From NCBI GenBank assembly GCA_964017185.1, contig OZ024883.1, positions 1,612,001 through 1,676,000 of the forward strand: 64,000 nucleotides of DNA. Reading direction: 5' to 3'. The position numbers and the translations under genes were made by a program. Origin of the DNA: Rugalucina vietnamica. Taxonomy: Eukaryota > Mollusca > Bivalvia > Lucinida > Lucinidae. Each line of letters begins with the position of its first letter. Positions within the stretch are counted from its first letter, which is position 1. Positions 28,010 to 51,331 of the stretch are shown here, in pieces. The notes beneath the pieces were generated by a model that saw only the letters and a program-made list of their open reading frames with translations, searched no databases and was not told where the DNA came from.

Positions 28010-30345
28010 ACCACACAGCTGTGGAATATGTAGAAAACCATTCACGAAAAAAGCCGTCTTACAAACCATCTGCTTATTCACACTGGAGATAGACCATAAA
28101 GCTGTGAAACCTGTGAAAATCATTACACAAAAAGGAAATCTTAAAACGCATTTGTTTAGTCACTACAGGTAAACCATAGAGCTGCGGGGCATGTGGAAAA
28201 ATATTCACACGGAAAGGAAATCTTGAATGGCATATGAAAATTCACACTGGAGATAAACCACATAGCTGCGGAACATGTGGACAATCGTTCACACGGAAAA
28301 GCGATCTTTCAAACCATATGATTATGCACACTGGAGAAAGACCACAGAAATGCCATCTAAAATATATATTTTAATTCACACTGGAGATAAATCACATAGC
28401 TGCGGAACATGTGGAAAATAATTCACACATAAAAATCTTAAAAAGCATATGTTTATTCACACTGGAGATACACTTTATAATTGTGAAACATGTGGAAATC
28501 AAACACAAAGAAAAGCATTCTTGAAAGGCATATGAACATTCACACTGGAGATAAACCATATAGCTGCGGAACATGTGGAAAATCGTTCACACGGAAAAGC
28601 GAACTTACAAACCATAAGCGTATTCACACTGGACCACATAATTGTGAAACATGTGGGAAATCATTCACACAGAAAGCCCATCTTAAAACGCATATGTTAA
28701 TTCACACTGGAGATAAACCATATAGCTGCGGGACATGTGGAAAATTATTCACACAGAAATTCCATCTTAAAAGGCATATGAAAATTCACACTGGAGATAA
28801 ACCACATAATTGTGACTCTTGTGGGACATCATTTACAAGAAAAAGCTATCTTACACCCCATATGATTATTCACACTGGAGAAAGACCACATAGCTGCGAA
28901 ATATGTGGAAAATCTTTCACACAGAGAGAGCAACTTAAAAGACATATTTTAATTCATACTGGAGATAAACCACATAGTTGTGAAACATGCGGGGAATTAT
29001 TCACACAAAAAGGCCATCTTAAAAGGCATATGTTAATACACACTGGAGATAAAGCACATAATTGTGAAACATGTGGGAAATCATTTACACAGAAAAGTGA
29101 TCTTAAAAGGCACATGTTTATTCACACTGGAGATAAACCATATGAGTGTGGTGTATGTGGAAAAGCGTTTACTCAACATAACAGACTTACAACCCATATG
29201 CTTATTCACACAGGAGATAAACCACAAAATTGTGAAATATGTGGAAAATCATTCACAATTAAATCTTATCTAACTAATCATATGCTTATTCACACTGGAT
29301 ATAAACCGCATAGCTGTGACGCATGTGGAAAATCATTCACACATAAAGGAAATCTTAAAACGCATATGTTATTTCACACTGGAGATAAACGACATTGCTG
29401 TGACGCATGTGGAAAATTATTCACACTAAAAGCCGATCTTAAAATGCATATGCTAATTCACACTGGAGATAAACCACATAGCTGTGAAACATGTGGGAAA
29501 TCATTCACTCGAAAAAGCGACCTTACAACCCATATGCTTATTCACTCTGGAGATAGTCCACATAGCTGTGAAACATGCGGGGATTCATTCACATGGCAAA
29601 GCGATCTTAAAAGGCATATTTTAATTCACACTGGAGATAAACCACATTAGTGTGATACTTGTCTAAGTAATCATACTTAATCACACTGGAGATTAACCTT
29701 ACAATTGTGATTTTTTGTAGAAAATCATTTTTACAAAAAAGCATTCTTAATACGCGTATGTAGAAACACATCGGAGATAAACCACGTGAGTGTGGTACTT
29801 GTGGGAAAACAATTACTCTTCATGACAGTCAAACAACGTATATGCTCATTCGCACCGGGGAAAAGTCACACAGATGTTATGTTTGTGGAAAATGGTTCCA
29901 TCAGAAACAACCTCTAAAAGCAAATAAGCTTATTCACACTGGAGATGAAGAAATAAGTTGTGGAACTTGTGCACAAACATCTGTTCATAAATCCAATCTT
30001 AAAAGACATATGCTTATTTACACTGGGAAAAAGACACTCACATGTCATGTTTGTGGAAACTCATTTAGTCAGAAACATAGTAAAAAAAACATATGCTAAT
30101 TCACACTGGAGATAAATAACACAGTTGTGAACTTGGCGGAAAATCATCTGCACAGAAAAATAATTGAACAAAACATTTGCGCAATCATACCGAAAATCAA
30201 CCACACCACTGGGAGTTTTGTGGTTAATCATTTGAAAGCAAACGTTATATTACAGAGCATATGCGAATTCACATTGGAGATATACAAAGTTATGAAACGT
30301 GCATATAATTATGTACACAGAAAAAAACAGTCTTACGATGCATAT
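28010..30345 (+). other. C2H2 zinc-finger array, whole extent (intact centre, decayed flanks)
   Basis: About 28 repeats of 84 bp (28 residues: C-x2-C-x12-H-x3-H plus linker). Fingers before 28490 (for example HSCGTCGQSFTRKSDLSNH at about 28261) and after 29650 (for example HRCYVCGKWFHQKQPL at about 29868) are interrupted by stops, frame changes and lost zinc ligands. An AG at 27641 with a good pyrimidine tract opens a short frame (RQRKQEPEVKFSPLEYKKYW) that could be an upstream exon, unproven. Confidence 0.8.
28490..29650 (+). CDS. C2H2 zinc-finger protein, 13 intact fingers
   Basis: Encodes 386 residues. After a half finger (residues 1-18, zinc cysteines out of frame) there are 13 C2H2 fingers, each with C-x2-C and H-x3-H, from YSCGTCGKSFTRKSEL to HSCETCGDSFTWQSDL. 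The linker is mostly HTGDKP instead of TGEKP. The linker before finger 2 is shortened (HTGPHNC). Such arrays bind DNA in the nucleus; the target is unknown. The Met at 28493-28495 region is only the first Met of the open stretch and lies within a broken finger, so the true start is probably upstream in another exon, or the locus is a partly decayed gene. The stop after HTGDKPH lies in a linker, with more fingers beyond. Confidence 0.75.
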   Translation: MWKSNTKKSILERHMNIHTGDKPYSCGTCGKSFTRKSELTNHKRIHTGPHNCETCGKSFTQKAHLKTHMLIHTGDKPYSCGTCGKLFTQKFHLKRHMKIHTGDKPHNCDSCGTSFTRKSYLTPHMIIHTGERPHSCEICGKSFTQREQLKRHILIHTGDKPHSCETCGELFTQKGHLKRHMLIHTGDKAHNCETCGKSFTQKSDLKRHMFIHTGDKPYECGVCGKAFTQHNRLTTHMLIHTGDKPQNCEICGKSFTIKSYLTNHMLIHTGYKPHSCDACGKSFTHKGNLKTHMLFHTGDKRHCCDACGKLFTLKADLKMHMLIHTGDKPHSCETCGKSFTRKSDLTTHMLIHSGDSPHSCETCGDSFTWQSDLKRHILIHTGDKPH

Positions 30346-39963: not shown

Positions 39964-41417
39964 TTACGGTAGTACGTTCCTCCATCCCGCTCTCAATGCG
40001 GTACTCAACGCCTGCCTTATTTCGGCATACTCCACTTGGTCTGCCTTGTTGTTATTTTCCTCTGGATCAGTCACGTGACAGTATAACTCAACTCCGTAGG
40101 AATCATCCCAGTCTGGCACGACCTCTGTTGGCGTGTATGTCCCTCCAATCCACTCCGTATAACGGTACTGACTCGTTGTCATTGAGTAGCCCATCACGGT
40201 ACGGGAACTTCTTGGGAATTGGGAAAACACTGCACTCTTCCAGGGTGCGTTCGAATCGCGGATCAGCGGCATTAAGCTGGAACCTTCCCTGCAGTTGGGA
40301 ACGTTGCTGGAGTCCTCCGGACAAACTTGTAACTGCGGCAGCCCTGCGGCCTCGACCAGAGTTGGGAAAAGGTCGACAAACTCCGTCAGTTTCTCCGTTG
40401 TTTGTCCGTCGTCTGTCATTCCGGGAATATGTATCATCATCGGTGCGTGTGTCGCTAGGTCGAAGTTTGTATGTTTGCACCAGGCTCCGTGTTCCCCTAG
40501 TTGCCACCCATGGTCACCCCAGAACGATATTATCGTGTTGTCAGACATATTCAGTCTATCAAGTTCGTCCAAAACACGCCCAAGTTGGGAGTCCATCCAC
40601 GTGACAGCTGCGTAATATGCACGTCGCAGTTCGAGTGTTTTCGTATCCGGTAACGTTGTATTTATGTAGCCATTAACATTCAAGTCTTGTATGTCGGTGT
40701 ACCCATTTCTCAATTCTCCGTAGTATGACCAAGCAATCTGCGGCATGTTGATTGGTGCGTATGGATTATCCGGCAGGCTTATGGTATCTTCAGGGTAATA
40801 ATCCAGTACTGATTCTGGAAAAATGAATGGAAGATGAGGCTTATAGAAACCAACCGCCATAAACCATGGGTCTTGTGAATCACCGGATTCGGCATCCTGT
40901 GCCAGGGTGCGTAGCGTGTCAACAGCTTGATCAGCTACAAGCTCGTCACGTAGAGGGTTATCAACAAGGTCTGCATCTGGGACGGCAATCCAGCTGATTC
41001 CGCTCGTTTCTATGTCGTTTCGTCCCGGTCTAAAATAATCGTAGTCCGCAGACCATGATAACGGATCATCATACCCAGAAGAAGCGCCGGGATGATAGAT
41101 TTTACCCATTCCAATTGATTTGTAACCATTTTCCTTAAAATATTGCGGTATAGTTGTGAAATTACCCCCAGCATTGCGCCAGTATGTGTCAAGGTCGAAC
41201 ACCTTGGTTGTGTCCGGGCGTCGGCCTGTTAACAGTGACGCACGTGACGGCGAACACACCGCTTGTTGAACGTACGCTTTCTTCAAGACCATGCTTTTAG
41301 CAGCGAGTTGGTCTAGATTTGGCGTATGCATCTTCTTCGGCGTTGCATCTTCATACGCTCCGAGTTGAACTCGTAGATCATCCGCCACAAGAAATAGTAC
41401 ATTCTTACGCTTAGGAA
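39964..41417 (-). CDS. IDS-like: sulfatase A exon 4 (whole sulfatase domain)
   Basis: Acceptor tttatcttgcag at 41418-41429, entering in phase 1. The open frame runs 484 codons to TAA at 39964-39966 (C-terminus RAGWRNVLP). The Met just upstream of the acceptor (MHVYLAV...) is intron read-through, not a start, because it would leave the enzyme without a signal peptide. Confidence 0.9.
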
Positions 41418-44414
41418 CTGCAAGATAAACATGCAATTTCTTTAGGAAAACATGCCCATGTAATATACAGAGATTTTTTGAGCGTTAAAAATTGAAAATC
41501 AGCTGAAAAAATTCGATATTTTTCTTATTTTTGTTCAAAACATAGATTGTGGGTACACGTTAGCGCCGAGGCGGTTCTAGCGAGTACACACAATCTATGT
41601 TTTGGAGCAAAAATAAGAAAAATAGGTATTCCCTTGCATACCCCAGTTTTGCTATATAAAAGTGGGGTTCAAGGGGTATATATGACACGTTTTCGTGATG
41701 TGTACATAAGAAGACGTTGCCCTTCTCATTTTTGTAGATAAAGTTCAATTTTATCTATCGTCAACTTTAAATCCGTCAACATCTGTAGACGCCAAAGATT
41801 TAATGCAAAATATGACCTCGAGCAGGTTCGTTGGTTACAAAATAACAAATTGGGTAAGTTAACATTTTAACAAGGTAATGTGAAAATGAAGTCAAATCAA
41901 ATGAATATTTAAGGTCATTGAAGACATGAGTAATGGCTGACCCATAGCCAAAGAAAAATCTATGCGTAATTCTTCACCCTAATTGTTACGGACTCGAGAA
42001 AAGATAAAGAGAGTTATATAAGCTGGCCAAAATAAATAAAATCAAAGGTGGAACCGATATGTACAACACTATAATGATTTTGTTACCGTATAACTTGCTT
42101 CAAGAGTCACTGATTTTTGAAATACAAAATTTACCACTAAGTATATGGAAAACCGTGATGAGGGCTATCTTCATCAGGAAAACATGTCCGTGAAATGTAT
42201 ACCCCCTTATACCCCACTTTTAAATAGCAATACTGGGGTACGCAGGGGTATACCTATTTTTCTTATTTTTGCTCTAAACATAGATTGTGGGTGCTCGTTA
42301 GAACCGCCTCGCCGAGGCGGTTCTAATGTGTACACACAATCTATGTTTTGAGCAAAAATAAGAAAAATATCATTTTTTTCCAGCGAAATTTTTCATTTTT
42401 ACAACCAAATTTTTTTTCTGTATATTGCATGGGCGTGTTTTCGTAATATTAGTGTGACCAACATATTACCTAATGTACAGGTACCAGTCGGGAAGCATGT
42501 CGGCGGTGTGCTGAAGACGACGGTGAATGCTATCAAATACTTGGATTTGTTAATATCCCCACTGTTGATCACTGTGTACGACGTGTCGTTAGTGGACTGT
42601 ACGGTCACTTGCTTTGACTGGAATGGAAATGAATATTATTAATGAGCCGTCTCGTGGGAAAACAAAAAATGTGGTTTCCGACCAGGTCTGACACAAACCA
42701 GGCTGCACAGTCACGGACGCAGGCTAGAAGCTTCAAATTTCTGATTTAAGAAGAAGAGGAAGTATACTATCCGTGTGGTGAAAACAAAGGCGATGCGTCT
42801 TTGTTTTCGCATATGCAGATTGTTAGTTTTCTCATGAGACGGCTCATTTAGGTGATTAAATAATTCTACTGGTAGTGTCTTGAAGTCGACAGTGAATGAT
42901 ATGAAATTTTTTGACATCTTCATATCACTACTGTTGATCACTGTGTACGACATACCGTTAGGTGACTGTACGGTCACTTGCTGAACTGAAAACATGCATC
43001 AAAGTTACACTAGCAGGACGTTAAATAATATTTAGCGCATTGGTGGTGCGTTGTACGAATGATTTGTGAAAAGTGGACTAAGTAATATAGTTATCATGTT
43101 ATGCATCTTGTGTCGTTTCTTGACTGTACGGTCATTTTCTTCGACTAAAACACTTACAATGTACATGCATTTAAGTTATAGTCAAATGTGACTAATTAAA
43201 ATGTTGTTAACATGAAACCGGTATGTTGAAAATAAGGATATTTAAGGACATCAGATATGTTTATATCTTTATAGATCACCGTGTATGACGTGCTCGACGG
43301 CTTGTTGACTGTACGACAATTTGCATCTACTGAAAAGATTATCTAATACATCACGAAAACATGTCCGTGTAATGTATATCCCCCTGAACCCAACTTTTAT
43401 ATGGCAAAACTGGGGTATGCAGGGGTATACCTATTTTTTTTTTTTTTTTTTTTTTTTTTTTGTGGGTACTCGTTAAAACCGCCTCACGGAGGCGGTTCTA
43501 ACGTGTACCCACAGTCTATGTTTTGAGCCAAAATAAGAAAAATATCAAAACTTTCAGCTGATTTTTTTTTTCTTTTTTAAAGCTCAAAAATCTATTAATT
43601 GCATGGACAAGTCTTCGTAATGCATTGTACTAGTACCTTAAAATTTGTTGTTGGTCTATCCAACTCTATATTAAATTTAGCATTCCCTGTCGTGATTACT
43701 GGGTCAAGATCAGTAAAAAGGCATTTCCCCGTAAGTTTGTATTTTGTTCCTGATTTCCCACTGGCTTTGATCTGATGCACGCTGATAGGAACTGACGAGC
43801 ACAATATGGCCTCCACCAGACAGCACAGAAGGGCGATAACTCTGAAAGAACAGAGTGTTTGATCTAGAAGTTGGTCTTGAGATAATATAAAAGTTAAAAG
43901 ATGATAACTTTTATAATTTAGCAATACAGAAATAATACAGAAAGTAGTGTGTTTGATTTCAGAATTTAACAAAACATCTATACTACTGACCTTTATGCAA
44001 TGAGCCGCCTCGTGGGAAAACCAAAAATGTGGTTTCCGAACAGGTCTGACACAAACCAACCTGTACCGTCACAGAAGCAGGCTATATAGAAGCTTGAAAT
44101 TTTGGAGTTAAGTAGAGGAGGAATTGTACTGTCCAAGTAGCGAAAACAAAGGCGCTGATCAGCTTCGCGGTTACCGCGAAGCTGATCTGCGCCTTTGTTT
44201 TCGCCTATGCAGATTGTTGGTTTTCCCATGAGGCGGCTCCAATATGTACTGAAAGTTGCCTGAGCGGGTAGCTGAATAATGTTAAAACCATTTTATAAGA
44301 CTTATCGAGTTAAACTCTGCTAGCTTTGACTAAAATCTGACATGATACGGGATGAGTATCAGTGTATCTTCTATCGATTGGTTGTAATACATAAACATAC
44401 CTTGATATTGCCAT
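39964..44414 (-). CDS. IDS-like: sulfatase A: secreted iduronate-2-sulfatase-like protein with extra N-terminal domain (4 exons)
   Basis: Spliced model: 44401-44414, 43637-43841, 42470-42617, 39964-41417 (1821 nt, 606 residues). All borders are GT/AG and phases agree (2, 0, 1). Residues 1-21 are a signal peptide (MAISR then VIALLCCLVEAILC). Residues about 22-122 form an unrecognised, probably beta-rich domain. Residues 124-606 are an iduronate-2-sulfatase-like arylsulfatase: metal-binding DD at 135-136, the sulfatase signature CSPSRASLLTGRRPDTT with formylglycine Cys177 and Arg181, then GMGKIYHPG, FYKPHLPF, GDHGWQLGEHG and WCKHTNFD, so all catalytic residues known for human IDS have counterparts. 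Expected to hydrolyse sulfate esters, probably on glycans, in the secretory/lysosomal or extracellular space; the substrate is not known. The IDS domain is in one exon, unlike vertebrate IDS (9 exons). Introns hold five MITEs. The paralogue B lies head-to-head, 5.3 kb away. Confidence 0.85.
41442..41702 (-). mobile_element. MITE-2 copy in sulfatase A intron 3
   Basis: taggaaaacatgcccatgta ... cacgttttcgtgatg. The core palindrome is shortened (gcgccgaggcggttctagcg). Its edge lies only 24 bp from the exon 4 acceptor. Confidence 0.85.
42172..42448 (+). mobile_element. MITE-2 copy in sulfatase A intron 3
   Basis: catcaggaaaacatgtccgt ... gggcgtgttttcgtaat. Core gaaccgcctcgccgaggcgg is perfect. 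Ends about 21 bp from the exon 3 donor. Confidence 0.88.
42470..42617 (-). CDS. IDS-like: sulfatase A exon 3 (N-terminal domain, second half)
   Basis: 148 nt, acceptor ccattccag, donor GTAATA. Encodes SKQVTVQSTNDTSYTVINSG then DINKSKYLIAFTVVF, STPPTCFPTGTCTL. An alternative acceptor six bases inside (gtcaaag|CAAGTG) also keeps frame. Three diverged copies of this exon lie in intron 2. Confidence 0.78.
42644..42845 (-). mobile_element. MITE-1 copy in sulfatase A intron 2
   Basis: gagccgtctcgtgggaaaac ... tctcatgagacggctc. The core palindrome is reduced to gcgaaaacaaaggcgatgcg-type arms. Its right edge cuts into the exon 3-like copy at 42846. Confidence 0.82.
42846..42980 (-). pseudogene. duplicated copy of exon 3 (copy b)
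   Basis: Acceptor-like ttttcagttcag, then QVTVQSPNGMSYTVINSSD and KMSKNFISFTVDFKTLPVE, clearly paralogous to exon 3. The donor end is gone, replaced by MITE-1, and no in-phase GT follows. Confidence 0.75.
43091..43140 (-). pseudogene. duplicated copy of exon 3 (copy d, short)
   Basis: On the minus strand 'aaaatgaccgtacagtcaag' and 'aacgacacaaga' match the first 45 bases of exon 3. The reading frame is lost afterwards. Confidence 0.55.
43265..43323 (-). pseudogene. duplicated copy of exon 3 (copy c)
   Basis: Minus strand 'caaattgtcgtacagtcaac' and 'cacgtcatacacggtgatct' match exon 3 bases 7-65. A stop follows in the expected frame. Confidence 0.6.
43350..43622 (+). mobile_element. MITE-2 copy in sulfatase A intron 2
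   Basis: atcacgaaaacatgtccgtg ... gacaagtcttcgtaat, with a T-run of about 28 at 43434-43461 replacing part of the left arm. Ends 14 bp from the exon 2 donor. Confidence 0.85.
43637..43841 (-). CDS. IDS-like: sulfatase A exon 2 (signal peptide core, N-terminal domain first half)
   Basis: 205 nt with acceptor ttctttcag and donor AAG|GTACTA. Encodes VIALLCCLVEAILCSSVP then ISVHQIKASGKSGTKYKL, TGKCLFTDLDPVITTGNA and KFNIELDRPTTNFK. Alternating hydrophobic residues suggest beta strands. Confidence 0.8.
44002..44239 (-). mobile_element. MITE-1 copy in sulfatase A intron 1
   Basis: gagccgcctcgtgggaaaac ... ttcccatgaggcggctc, flanked by CAAT on both sides (43998-44001, 44240-44243). Palindrome centre cttcgcggttaccgcgaag. 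Confidence 0.9.
44401..44414 (-). CDS. IDS-like: sulfatase A exon 1 (start codon)
   Basis: ATGGCAATATCAAG|GTATGT: 14 coding bases ending in phase 2, exactly what exon 2 needs, and a consensus donor. Joined, it gives MAISR followed by the hydrophobic run, a standard signal peptide. Short, so the support is the phase fit and position, not length. Confidence 0.7.
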
Positions 44415-49136: not shown

Positions 49137-49461
49137 GCATCTACTGAAACGTGTTACTCTATAGAAAAGGTACTGAAATGAAAATCGACCTATCCTTAAC
49201 AAAATGATTAAAGCTTCAAGGCTGATAATTGCATATAAAAAGTTTATTAAGATAAAAGTTATGACAAACAAATTTTGACGTTTTTGCAGTAAGTCCATGG
49301 AAAAGATTCAACTGGGGCTTAAATTTATTTTGACCAGTTAATGTTTGAGAAAAGTCCAAAATTTAACCCAGAATATGAACCCAGATTTACGATCATGTTG
49401 GAATTGAAAGGTCTTGTAGTACAGAACAATAACACGAATTAATTGATAAGCAATCTCATAT

Positions 49462-49695
49462 GAGCCTGTGCGTGAGAAAACCAACAATTTGCATGGGCGA
49501 AAACAAAGACGCAGATCAGCTTCGCGGTAACCGCGAAGCTGATCAGCGTCTTTGTTTTCGCTACACGGATAGTACATTTCCTCCTCTACTTATACCCAAA
49601 TTTTCAAGATCCTGGGTTTCTTCTGTGACTGTACAGGCTGGTTTGTGTCGGACCTGTTCGGAAACCACATTGTTGGTTTTCTCATGCACAGGCTC
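49462..49695 (+). mobile_element. MITE-1 copy just upstream of sulfatase B
   Basis: gagcctgtgcgtgagaaaac ... tctcatgcacaggctc. Palindrome centre cttcgcggtaaccgcgaag. Ends 55 bp before the sulfatase B start codon. It is open in the sulfatase frame, making a false N-terminal extension. Confidence 0.9.
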
Positions 49696-49696
49696 A

Positions 49697-49704
49697 TTTA
49701 TAAG
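49697..49704 (+). promoter_or_regulatory. TATA-like box of sulfatase B
   Basis: TTTATAAG starts one or two bases past the MITE-1 end and about 47 bp before the ATG. If used, transcription would start near 49725-49730, giving a very short leader. Candidate only. Confidence 0.35.
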
Positions 49705-49750: not shown

Positions 49751-51331
49751 ATGTTAAAACTTTCGGAAATTATACAAAAGATATTCATTCTAATAACTGT
49801 GTTACACGTGACCGTAGTTCTTGGACGTAAAAATGTGTTATTTCTCGTGGCGGATGATTTACGTGTTCAGCTTGGTGCATACGATGGACCAAACTTCGCC
49901 TCTCCAATACATCCACAGATGTATACACCGAATCTCGACAAACTCGCTGCCAAGAGCATGGTATTGAAGCGAGCCTATGTGCAGCAGGCGCTGTGTTCGC
50001 CGTCACGGACCTCACTACTGACGGGCCGACGTCCTGACACTACCAAGATCTGGGATTTGGACCACTATTGGCGCCAGGTGGGTGGCAACTTTACCACAAT
50101 ACCACAGTATTTCAAGGAACATGGGTATTACTCCGTTGGGATGGGGAAGATATTTCACCCCAACGCTGCTTCAGGCCATGACGACCCCATATCGTGGTCT
50201 AAGAAATACTGGCACTCTAAACGTACTCCCTGGGAAGACACAAAGAACAGGAGTTGGACCGCGGTGCCTGATCATGAACTAAACCACCATCCTTTAGTTG
50301 ATAAACAAATCAGCAATCACGCATTGTACACACTGCGCAGTCTCGCTGCACACGCCAATCTATCAAGCCACGCCCACAAGCCGTTCTTCATGGCGGTAGG
50401 GTTCCACAGGCCACACCTCCCTTTTGTTTTCCCCGCCTCAATGTTGAATCATTACCCAGAATCTGCGATACATCTACCGGACAACCCATACGCACCAGTC
50501 AACATGCCCGATGAGGCTTGGGCGGCCTACACAGAGCTGAGGAATTTCAATGACGTTAAGGCGCTACATCCGACAGGCAACATAAATACAACGCTACCGG
50601 CTTCAAAAGTTTTAGAACTGCGACGTGCGTATTACAGTGCTGTAACATGGATGGACTATAATATTGGTCGGATTCTTGATGAACTGGAAAAGTTGAATCT
50701 GGCTGACAATACGATTATTTCATTCTTCGGAGATCACGGGTGGCAACTTGGGGAACATGGTGAGTGGTGCAAACATACAAACTTTGATATCGCTACGCAT
50801 GCGCCAATGATGATCCGCGTGCCAGGACTGACGGATAACGGGGAATCAACAGACAAACTGACGGAATTTGTCGATCTTTTCCCGACTTTGGTCGAAGCGG
50901 CGGGACTACCGAAGTTGAATGTCTGTCCACCTGATTCTAGCCATGTACGTCTGTGTACTGAAGGGTCGAGCTTGATGCCGCTGATCAGAAATCCTAGCGC
51001 ACAGTGGAAATCCGCAGCCTTTTCACAATACCCAAGAAATGTGCATGGAGCCCACGGACAGAAAGCTATGGGATACACTATGACAACTAGCCAACACCGC
51101 TATACGGAATGGGTACGTGTAACAAACCTGTATACATCAAGTTATAAGCCAGACTGGAATACTGTATACAGCGTTGAGTTGTACGACCACACCAAAGATC
51201 CCGAGGAAAATTACAACGTCGCGGATGAATCGGGTTATGCCCATATAAGACAACAGCTACACCATTCTCTGAGGTCGGGGTGGAGATCTATGGTGCCTGG
51301 GGGACATGGTACAGCACCCGTGGTTGGATAG
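49751..51331 (+). CDS. IDS-like: sulfatase B: single-exon iduronate-2-sulfatase-like protein
   Basis: 526 residues with no intron. The start is the ATG at 49751: it gives a signal peptide (MLKLSEIIQKIFILITV...VVLG, about residues 1-25) directly followed by RKNVLFLVADD. The open frame continues upstream only through a MITE. Catalytic set present: DD 35-36, CSPSRTSLLTGRRPDTT with formylglycine Cys82 and Arg86, K133/H136 in GMGKIFHP, FHRPHLPF, GDHGWQLGEHGEW and CKHTNFD. Length is close to human IDS (550). It lacks the about 100-residue domain that precedes the enzyme in sulfatase A. Predicted secreted or lysosomal sulfatase; the substrate is not known. Possible retrocopy relative to intron-rich IDS of vertebrates. 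Polyadenylation signal at 51393. Confidence 0.93.
   Translation: MLKLSEIIQKIFILITVLHVTVVLGRKNVLFLVADDLRVQLGAYDGPNFASPIHPQMYTPNLDKLAAKSMVLKRAYVQQALCSPSRTSLLTGRRPDTTKIWDLDHYWRQVGGNFTTIPQYFKEHGYYSVGMGKIFHPNAASGHDDPISWSKKYWHSKRTPWEDTKNRSWTAVPDHELNHHPLVDKQISNHALYTLRSLAAHANLSSHAHKPFFMAVGFHRPHLPFVFPASMLNHYPESAIHLPDNPYAPVNMPDEAWAAYTELRNFNDVKALHPTGNINTTLPASKVLELRRAYYSAVTWMDYNIGRILDELEKLNLADNTIISFFGDHGWQLGEHGEWCKHTNFDIATHAPMMIRVPGLTDNGESTDKLTEFVDLFPTLVEAAGLPKLNVCPPDSSHVRLCTEGSSLMPLIRNPSAQWKSAAFSQYPRNVHGAHGQKAMGYTMTTSQHRYTEWVRVTNLYTSSYKPDWNTVYSVELYDHTKDPEENYNVADESGYAHIRQQLHHSLRSGWRSMVPGGHGTAPVVG

Follow-up and report, generated by a model that had tools for sequence, protein, structure and literature searches.

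The minus strand of a 64,000-nucleotide stretch of the Rugalucina vietnamica genome (contig OZ024883.1, positions 1,612,001 to 1,676,000; hereafter the window) appears to encode a sulfatase of the iduronate-2-sulfatase (IDS) type preceded by an additional N-terminal domain split between two small exons. In human IDS the sulfatase begins right after the signal peptide, and paralogue B, elsewhere in the window, is arranged in the same way, its own leader being readable directly ahead of the sulfatase as the initial annotation had stated. The locus therefore raises the question of whether the additional domain belongs to the sulfatase gene, and if so, where it came from and what it might do there.

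Gene model and the IDS-like gene set

Exons 1–4 (Table 1) join through GT-AG borders and phases 2/0/1 to give a continuous 606-residue reading frame with no inner stop, as the initial annotation proposed, and the predicted order of signal peptide, extra two-exon domain and complete IDS-type sulfatase is upheld by the sequence; the three cysteines ascribed to the extra domain are at residues 45, 114 and 120. Exon 2 has no in-frame upstream Met, and the exon 4 frame has none between its upstream stop and KRKNVLF, the first Met falling beyond the catalytic DD pair. Because neither frame has a Met start of its own, both would need a start upstream. The phase-1 exit of exon 3 is matched by a phase-1 entry at the AG acceptor of exon 4. 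Given that exon 4 is without a start and that relatives of the extra domain have the same phases (see below), the four-exon join, as read from sequence, is not a product of chance. Exons 1–3 would thus be spliced to the sulfatase exon, with exon 1 appearing the least supported of the four.

Table 1. Coordinates of the window features (window positions) and of module copies elsewhere in the genome.
Feature	Location	Strand	Description
Exon 1, coding part	44401..44414	-	14 b; start codon and first signal-peptide residues; phase 2 out; GT donor; phase fits exon 2
Exon 2	43637..43841	-	205 b; remainder of the signal peptide, then the first half of the N-terminal module; phase 0 out
Exon 3	42470..42617	-	148 b; second half of N-terminal module; phase 1 out
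Exon 4	39964..41417	-	1454 b; complete IDS-type (S1_7-like) sulfatase in a single exon, with stop
Truncated tandem exon 3 copy	42840..42985	-	Intron 2; from alignment, edges approximate; frame 42711-42998; genome match C15:1654867-1655028
More diverged, gapped exon 3 copy	43200..43331	-	Intron 2; from alignment, edges approximate
Paralogue B	49751..51331	+	Single-exon IDS-type sulfatase; own leader; no extra module
Module copy X3	C2:2.078 Mb		
Module copy X1	C2:2.093 Mb		
Module copy X4	C2:2.102 Mb		
Module copy X2	C2:2.137 Mb		
Module copy X5	C2:71.12 Mb		
Module copy X6	C2:65.75 Mb		
Module copy C2d	C2:26.93 Mb		
Module copy C16	C16:33.66/33.595 Mb		

Residues 127-481 match the sulfatase family PF00884 (E 4.6e-45), and the top solved structure for this half is human IDS (5fql, E 6.8e-99; 42% identity); 5fql and 6ioz lead the ranking (E 7e-99), with 6hhm next (3.9e-72). 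The catalytic motifs are intact: DD (135-136), CSPSR (177; the C-x-P-S-R sulfatase signature), GDHGW (423) and WCKHTNF (435) align with those of IDS, and we take the residues to have the same catalytic roles. Iduronate-2-sulfatase activity is not implied by this IDS-like sequence. SulfAtlas subfamily S1_7 is tabulated in PMC5066984 as including both IDS and an endo-4S-kappa-carrageenan sulfatase, and because the subfamily holds both, the sequence leaves the substrate unfixed. IDS (S1_7) is the nearest solved relative and shares its catalytic motifs with the window gene, which differs in having the extra N-terminal module and in having its sulfatase in one exon, as one of 13 such frames.

A search of the genome (1.09 Gb, 47 contigs) gave these 13 frames, all intact, IDS-like and contained in a single exon; the window gene and B are among them. 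In all 12 of the others the NVLF motif is immediately preceded by a Met and what by eye is a hydrophobic leader; 10 of these starts are distinct, as L001/L002 and L004/L005 show identical ones. The window gene is the only one of the 13 without its own leader and the only one with the module; neither module query gave a match near the other 12 frames in the genome search. Its closest relative by identity is B (67%), and the pairing of the two has a support of 70 in one tree but is not recovered in a larger tree, which included 30 of the 47 bacterial IDS-like loci found (the other 17 were omitted by choice beforehand, under no fixed rule). The single-exon group of this genome, in which L037-L039 have C-termini clipped by the extent of the retrieved stretch, forms one clade with a support of 100. 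We considered a bacterial origin for this group, one planctomycete locus being 52% identical to the window sulfatase compared with 42% for human IDS, and set it aside; the tree, which is unrooted and has a long human branch, does not resolve it. The evidence leans towards a retrocopy origin, given a multi-exon IDS-like gene at C1:84343801-84350053 (~84.34 Mb; 64%, 38%, 49% and 47% identity by piece), which is perhaps the ordinary IDS gene and the source of the single-exon group.

Several other features of these loci may be recorded. One IDS-like gene pair is present twice, 27 kb apart (C15:37370840-37372303 with 37397860-37399323, and C15:37378465 with 37405485), with scores that are equal or nearly so, which suggests either a recent segmental duplication or an assembly duplicate. 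Other IDS-like copies, at C10:4627713-4629483, C5:20989170-20996290 and C4:70541974-70543342, are broken by stops or split frames. Within the window, a 387-codon open frame at 28487-29650 has what looks by eye to be a run of C2H2 zinc fingers, and an abundant short interspersed repeat occupies introns and flanks (e.g. 44292-43993, 42840-42640 and 49433-49700) and is also present at the C2 loci. By alignment, exon 3 is repeatedly duplicated at the window locus (42840-43331), with the copy predicted to be in use intact. The truncated copy has a frame open into an inserted repeat, lacks a donor as well as the final two cysteines, and is probably dead.

The N-terminal module in glycoside hydrolase genes

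The module has no Pfam match above cut-off in either the window gene or the other copies, and a comparison of its profile with sequences of solved structures gave a best E of 0.27, which is chance-like. Several Pfam stragglers (TcaA_3rd_4th at 0.0044, Cadherin_FAT4_N at 0.098, and others) are below the cut-off and differ from copy to copy, and we likewise attribute these to chance. The earlier description of the domain as unfamiliar is thus apt for Pfam and for the sequences of solved structures, but not for the genome itself, where it is recognizable at the N-terminus of GH10 and GH9 genes. Searching the genome with the window module matched 19 places with E values no higher than 10, three of them in the window, and a C16-type module query matched 16, both counts being lower bounds because the genome search scores only the best candidates. 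The best E values against genome relatives are 1.2e-17 for exon 2 and 4.4e-12 for exon 3; exon 2 relatives are at C2:2.078-2.138 Mb (51-56% identity) and also at the X5 and X6 loci, and exon 3 relatives are at the same loci.

The copies share their intron phases as well as their sequence. Reading of the junctions gives an exon 2 entry in phase 2 and an inner intron in phase 0 in five copies (X1, X2, X3, X5 and C16, the last presuming that exons 69 kb apart form one gene), and an exon 3 with phase 0 in and phase 1 out in six (the same five and C2d). The window module is 53-59% identical to X1-X4, and 48-59% across the five GH10-linked copies X1-X5. Relative to X1-X4 its dN/dS (Nei-Gojobori) is 0.12-0.29, values that are rough since dS is 1.1-2.8, and relative to X5 the synonymous sites are saturated.

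GH10 exons are downstream of X1-X5 and on the same strand. The X2 chain, spliced in phase by script with its first exon and C-terminal end omitted and some borders picked by score only, has the module followed by CBM_4_9 (E 3e-8) and GH10 (E 1.7e-39), while the GH10 link for X1, X3, X4 and X5 is drawn from position and strand; CBM-like exons lie between module and GH10 in X1, X3 and X5. The window gene therefore resembles the GH10 xylanase genes (C2:2.07-2.15 Mb and C2:71.1 Mb) in its signal peptide, two-exon module and, for the four copies printed (X1, X2, X3 and X5), splice phases, but departs from them in that its module leads directly into the sulfatase, whereas theirs is followed by CBM_4_9 and GH10 (spliced for X2 only). 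The same GH10 exon is found at three loci with no module match (C2:79.46, C2:72.64 and C6:20.08 Mb). The C16 copy has GH9 exons downstream, and after the C2d copy there is a series of two-exon modules that have Thr/Pro-rich linkers. This array of closely similar modules is in L035 (C2:26920001-26930000), and one of them, when spliced, had no above-threshold match in Pfam. Frames situated between GH10 exons of X3 (L017, C2:2067937-2070422) resemble by eye a non-LTR retrotransposon reverse transcriptase.

Genome searches with PF00331 and PF00553 gave no match, although the spliced X2 product matched GH10 and a spliced CBM2 is present at C14; the former miss is probably due to the short GH10 exons. 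In this genome, family searches run exon by exon overlook short exons, so that a missing match carries little weight. With supports of 36 and 46 at its deep nodes, the tree of the module copies does not point to one donor, and a comparison of upstream sequence with those C2 loci that were covered gave no shared promoter, the matches resembling dispersed repeats. A bacterial source for the module was also considered and discarded, a scan of the genome_contigs collection with an 8-row alignment giving 51 pattern matches and no relative.

Probable relationship of the module to CBM2

The 'r4' module immediately ahead of the GH9 part at the C16 locus aligns with the N-terminal module with an hhalign score of 46.7 (best of 60 column shuffles, 17.7), and by this profile comparison the two are homologous. 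A second GH9 gene (C14:47.18 Mb) encodes a true N-terminal CBM2 (PF00553, E 9.5e-11), which is split by a phase-0 intron. The module profile compared with CBM2 scores 15.71 (best of 60 shuffles, 15.59), the module with its relatives 19.6 (15.17; probability 5%), and the repeat-module profile 12.9, a value reached by 5 of 60 shuffles; the hhalign probability for module and CBM2 is at most 5%. In six of the seven alignments of module-holding profiles, which are not independent of one another, the intron of the window gene occupies exactly the column of the CBM2 intron, the seventh being 13 columns long and stopping short of it. By eye, r4 also has its intron on this column, as do the repeat modules when aligned without r4.

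The module is probably a remote and strongly diverged descendant of CBM2. It is not a CBM2 as the family is now defined, because there is no Pfam match (none to CBM_2 over the gathering score in eight module copies or in the C2:26.93 Mb copy) and no tryptophan in residues 20-122 of the window module. The binding face of CBM2a is formed by aromatic surface tryptophans, and because the module has none, a classic flat-face mode of cellulose binding is unlikely. The CBM2 at C14 and the module are alike in being N-terminal, of ~100 residues and interrupted at a shared profile column by a phase-0 intron, but the module differs in lacking the Pfam match and the tryptophan and in its very low sequence similarity.

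Origin and possible role of the module

One alternative is that the four exons do not form a single gene, with exons 1–3 being the 5′ part of a GH10 gene that was left stranded, while an unseen first exon, in the intervening 1 kb or elsewhere, serves the sulfatase. Stranded pieces do exist. The X6 copy has lost its frame in exon 3, has no CBM_4_9 or GH10 exon among the frames of at least 60 codons below it and no GH10 match, and looks broken or stranded; intron 2 of the window gene has additional exon 3 copies, which are of a kind with this explanation. However, exons 2 and 3 of the window gene are intact, with their three cysteines and a low dN/dS, the exit of exon 3 fits the entry of exon 4 at an AG acceptor, and exon 4 does not supply its own start, so that this alternative seems improbable to us.

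Two other explanations accept the join and concern the nature of the module. It could be a two-exon beta domain unrelated to CBM2, the likeness arising by chance, as the low hhalign probability and the absence of a Pfam match would permit. We regard this as rather unlikely, since both the column and the phase of the intron coincide with CBM2, for which our own estimate of a chance agreement is ~1 in 200 (65 columns x 3 phases), and two of the three profiles beat all 60 shuffles, one of them barely, with the third not doing so. A role in secretion, folding or oligomerization, with no polysaccharide binding and CBM2 ancestry at most, deserves more weight while still being doubtful. Neither the window copy nor the eight others compared (one truncated) has a tryptophan, and X2, with a CBM_4_9 of its own, need not depend on the module for binding; against this, the six other loci with an assigned catalytic part are all GH10 (five) or GH9 (one), subject to the X1, X3, X4 and X5 assignments coming from position and strand.

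We favor, with a probability of about two in three, the explanation that exon shuffling or a 5′ gene fusion put a GH10-type module on a secreted IDS-family sulfatase, where it likely serves as an accessory, polysaccharide-directing domain. The original single-exon start of the sulfatase would have been replaced by a signal peptide and N-terminal module such as this genome has on its GH10 xylanases. The module would then most likely be non-catalytic, holding the sulfatase on a polysaccharide or directing it toward one, so that sulfate esters may be removed alongside the action of the animal's own xylanases and cellulases. A polysaccharide-directed role is suggested because the other hosts of the module are xylanase-type genes and one cellulase-type gene, in a comparison made wholly within one animal species. 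The sequences themselves establish that the module is homologous to the other copies and has their intron phases, that it occurs at GH10 and GH9 loci, and that the catalytic motifs are intact; we infer the splicing to the sulfatase exon, the direction of transfer, secretion, polysaccharide binding and the substrate. Of the two functions offered in the initial annotation, binding of substrate gains circumstantial support from these hosts, but anchoring to matrix gains none.

A broader interpretation, which is tentative and which we think has the odds against it, is that the module represents a new carbohydrate-binding family derived from CBM2, with a non-aromatic face, and has been shuffled among GH10, GH9 and sulfatase genes to give an enzyme set for one sulfated xylan-like algal polysaccharide. 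Among the papers listed by our literature searches, none has a title or displayed abstract opening that mentions such a sulfatase or module. Sulfatases do occur together with glycoside hydrolases in bivalve digestive glands: excerpts of the respective reports place arylsulfatases alongside hydrolases in the scallop digestive-gland proteome (PMC5159873) and describe the oyster digestive gland as richer in aryl-sulfatases than the shipworm (PMC5840672), but an IDS-type sulfatase carrying an extra module is not mentioned in these excerpts.

If the four-exon join is true, the window gene would clearly exemplify exon shuffling in an animal, a sulfatase having gained an accessory module from a wall-degrading hydrolase whose family, the likely donor, is present in the same genome to this day. 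It would also provide a testable guess at the substrate for one of the 13 IDS-like frames, and draws attention to a module that is common to GH10, GH9 and sulfatase genes and has no Pfam entry.
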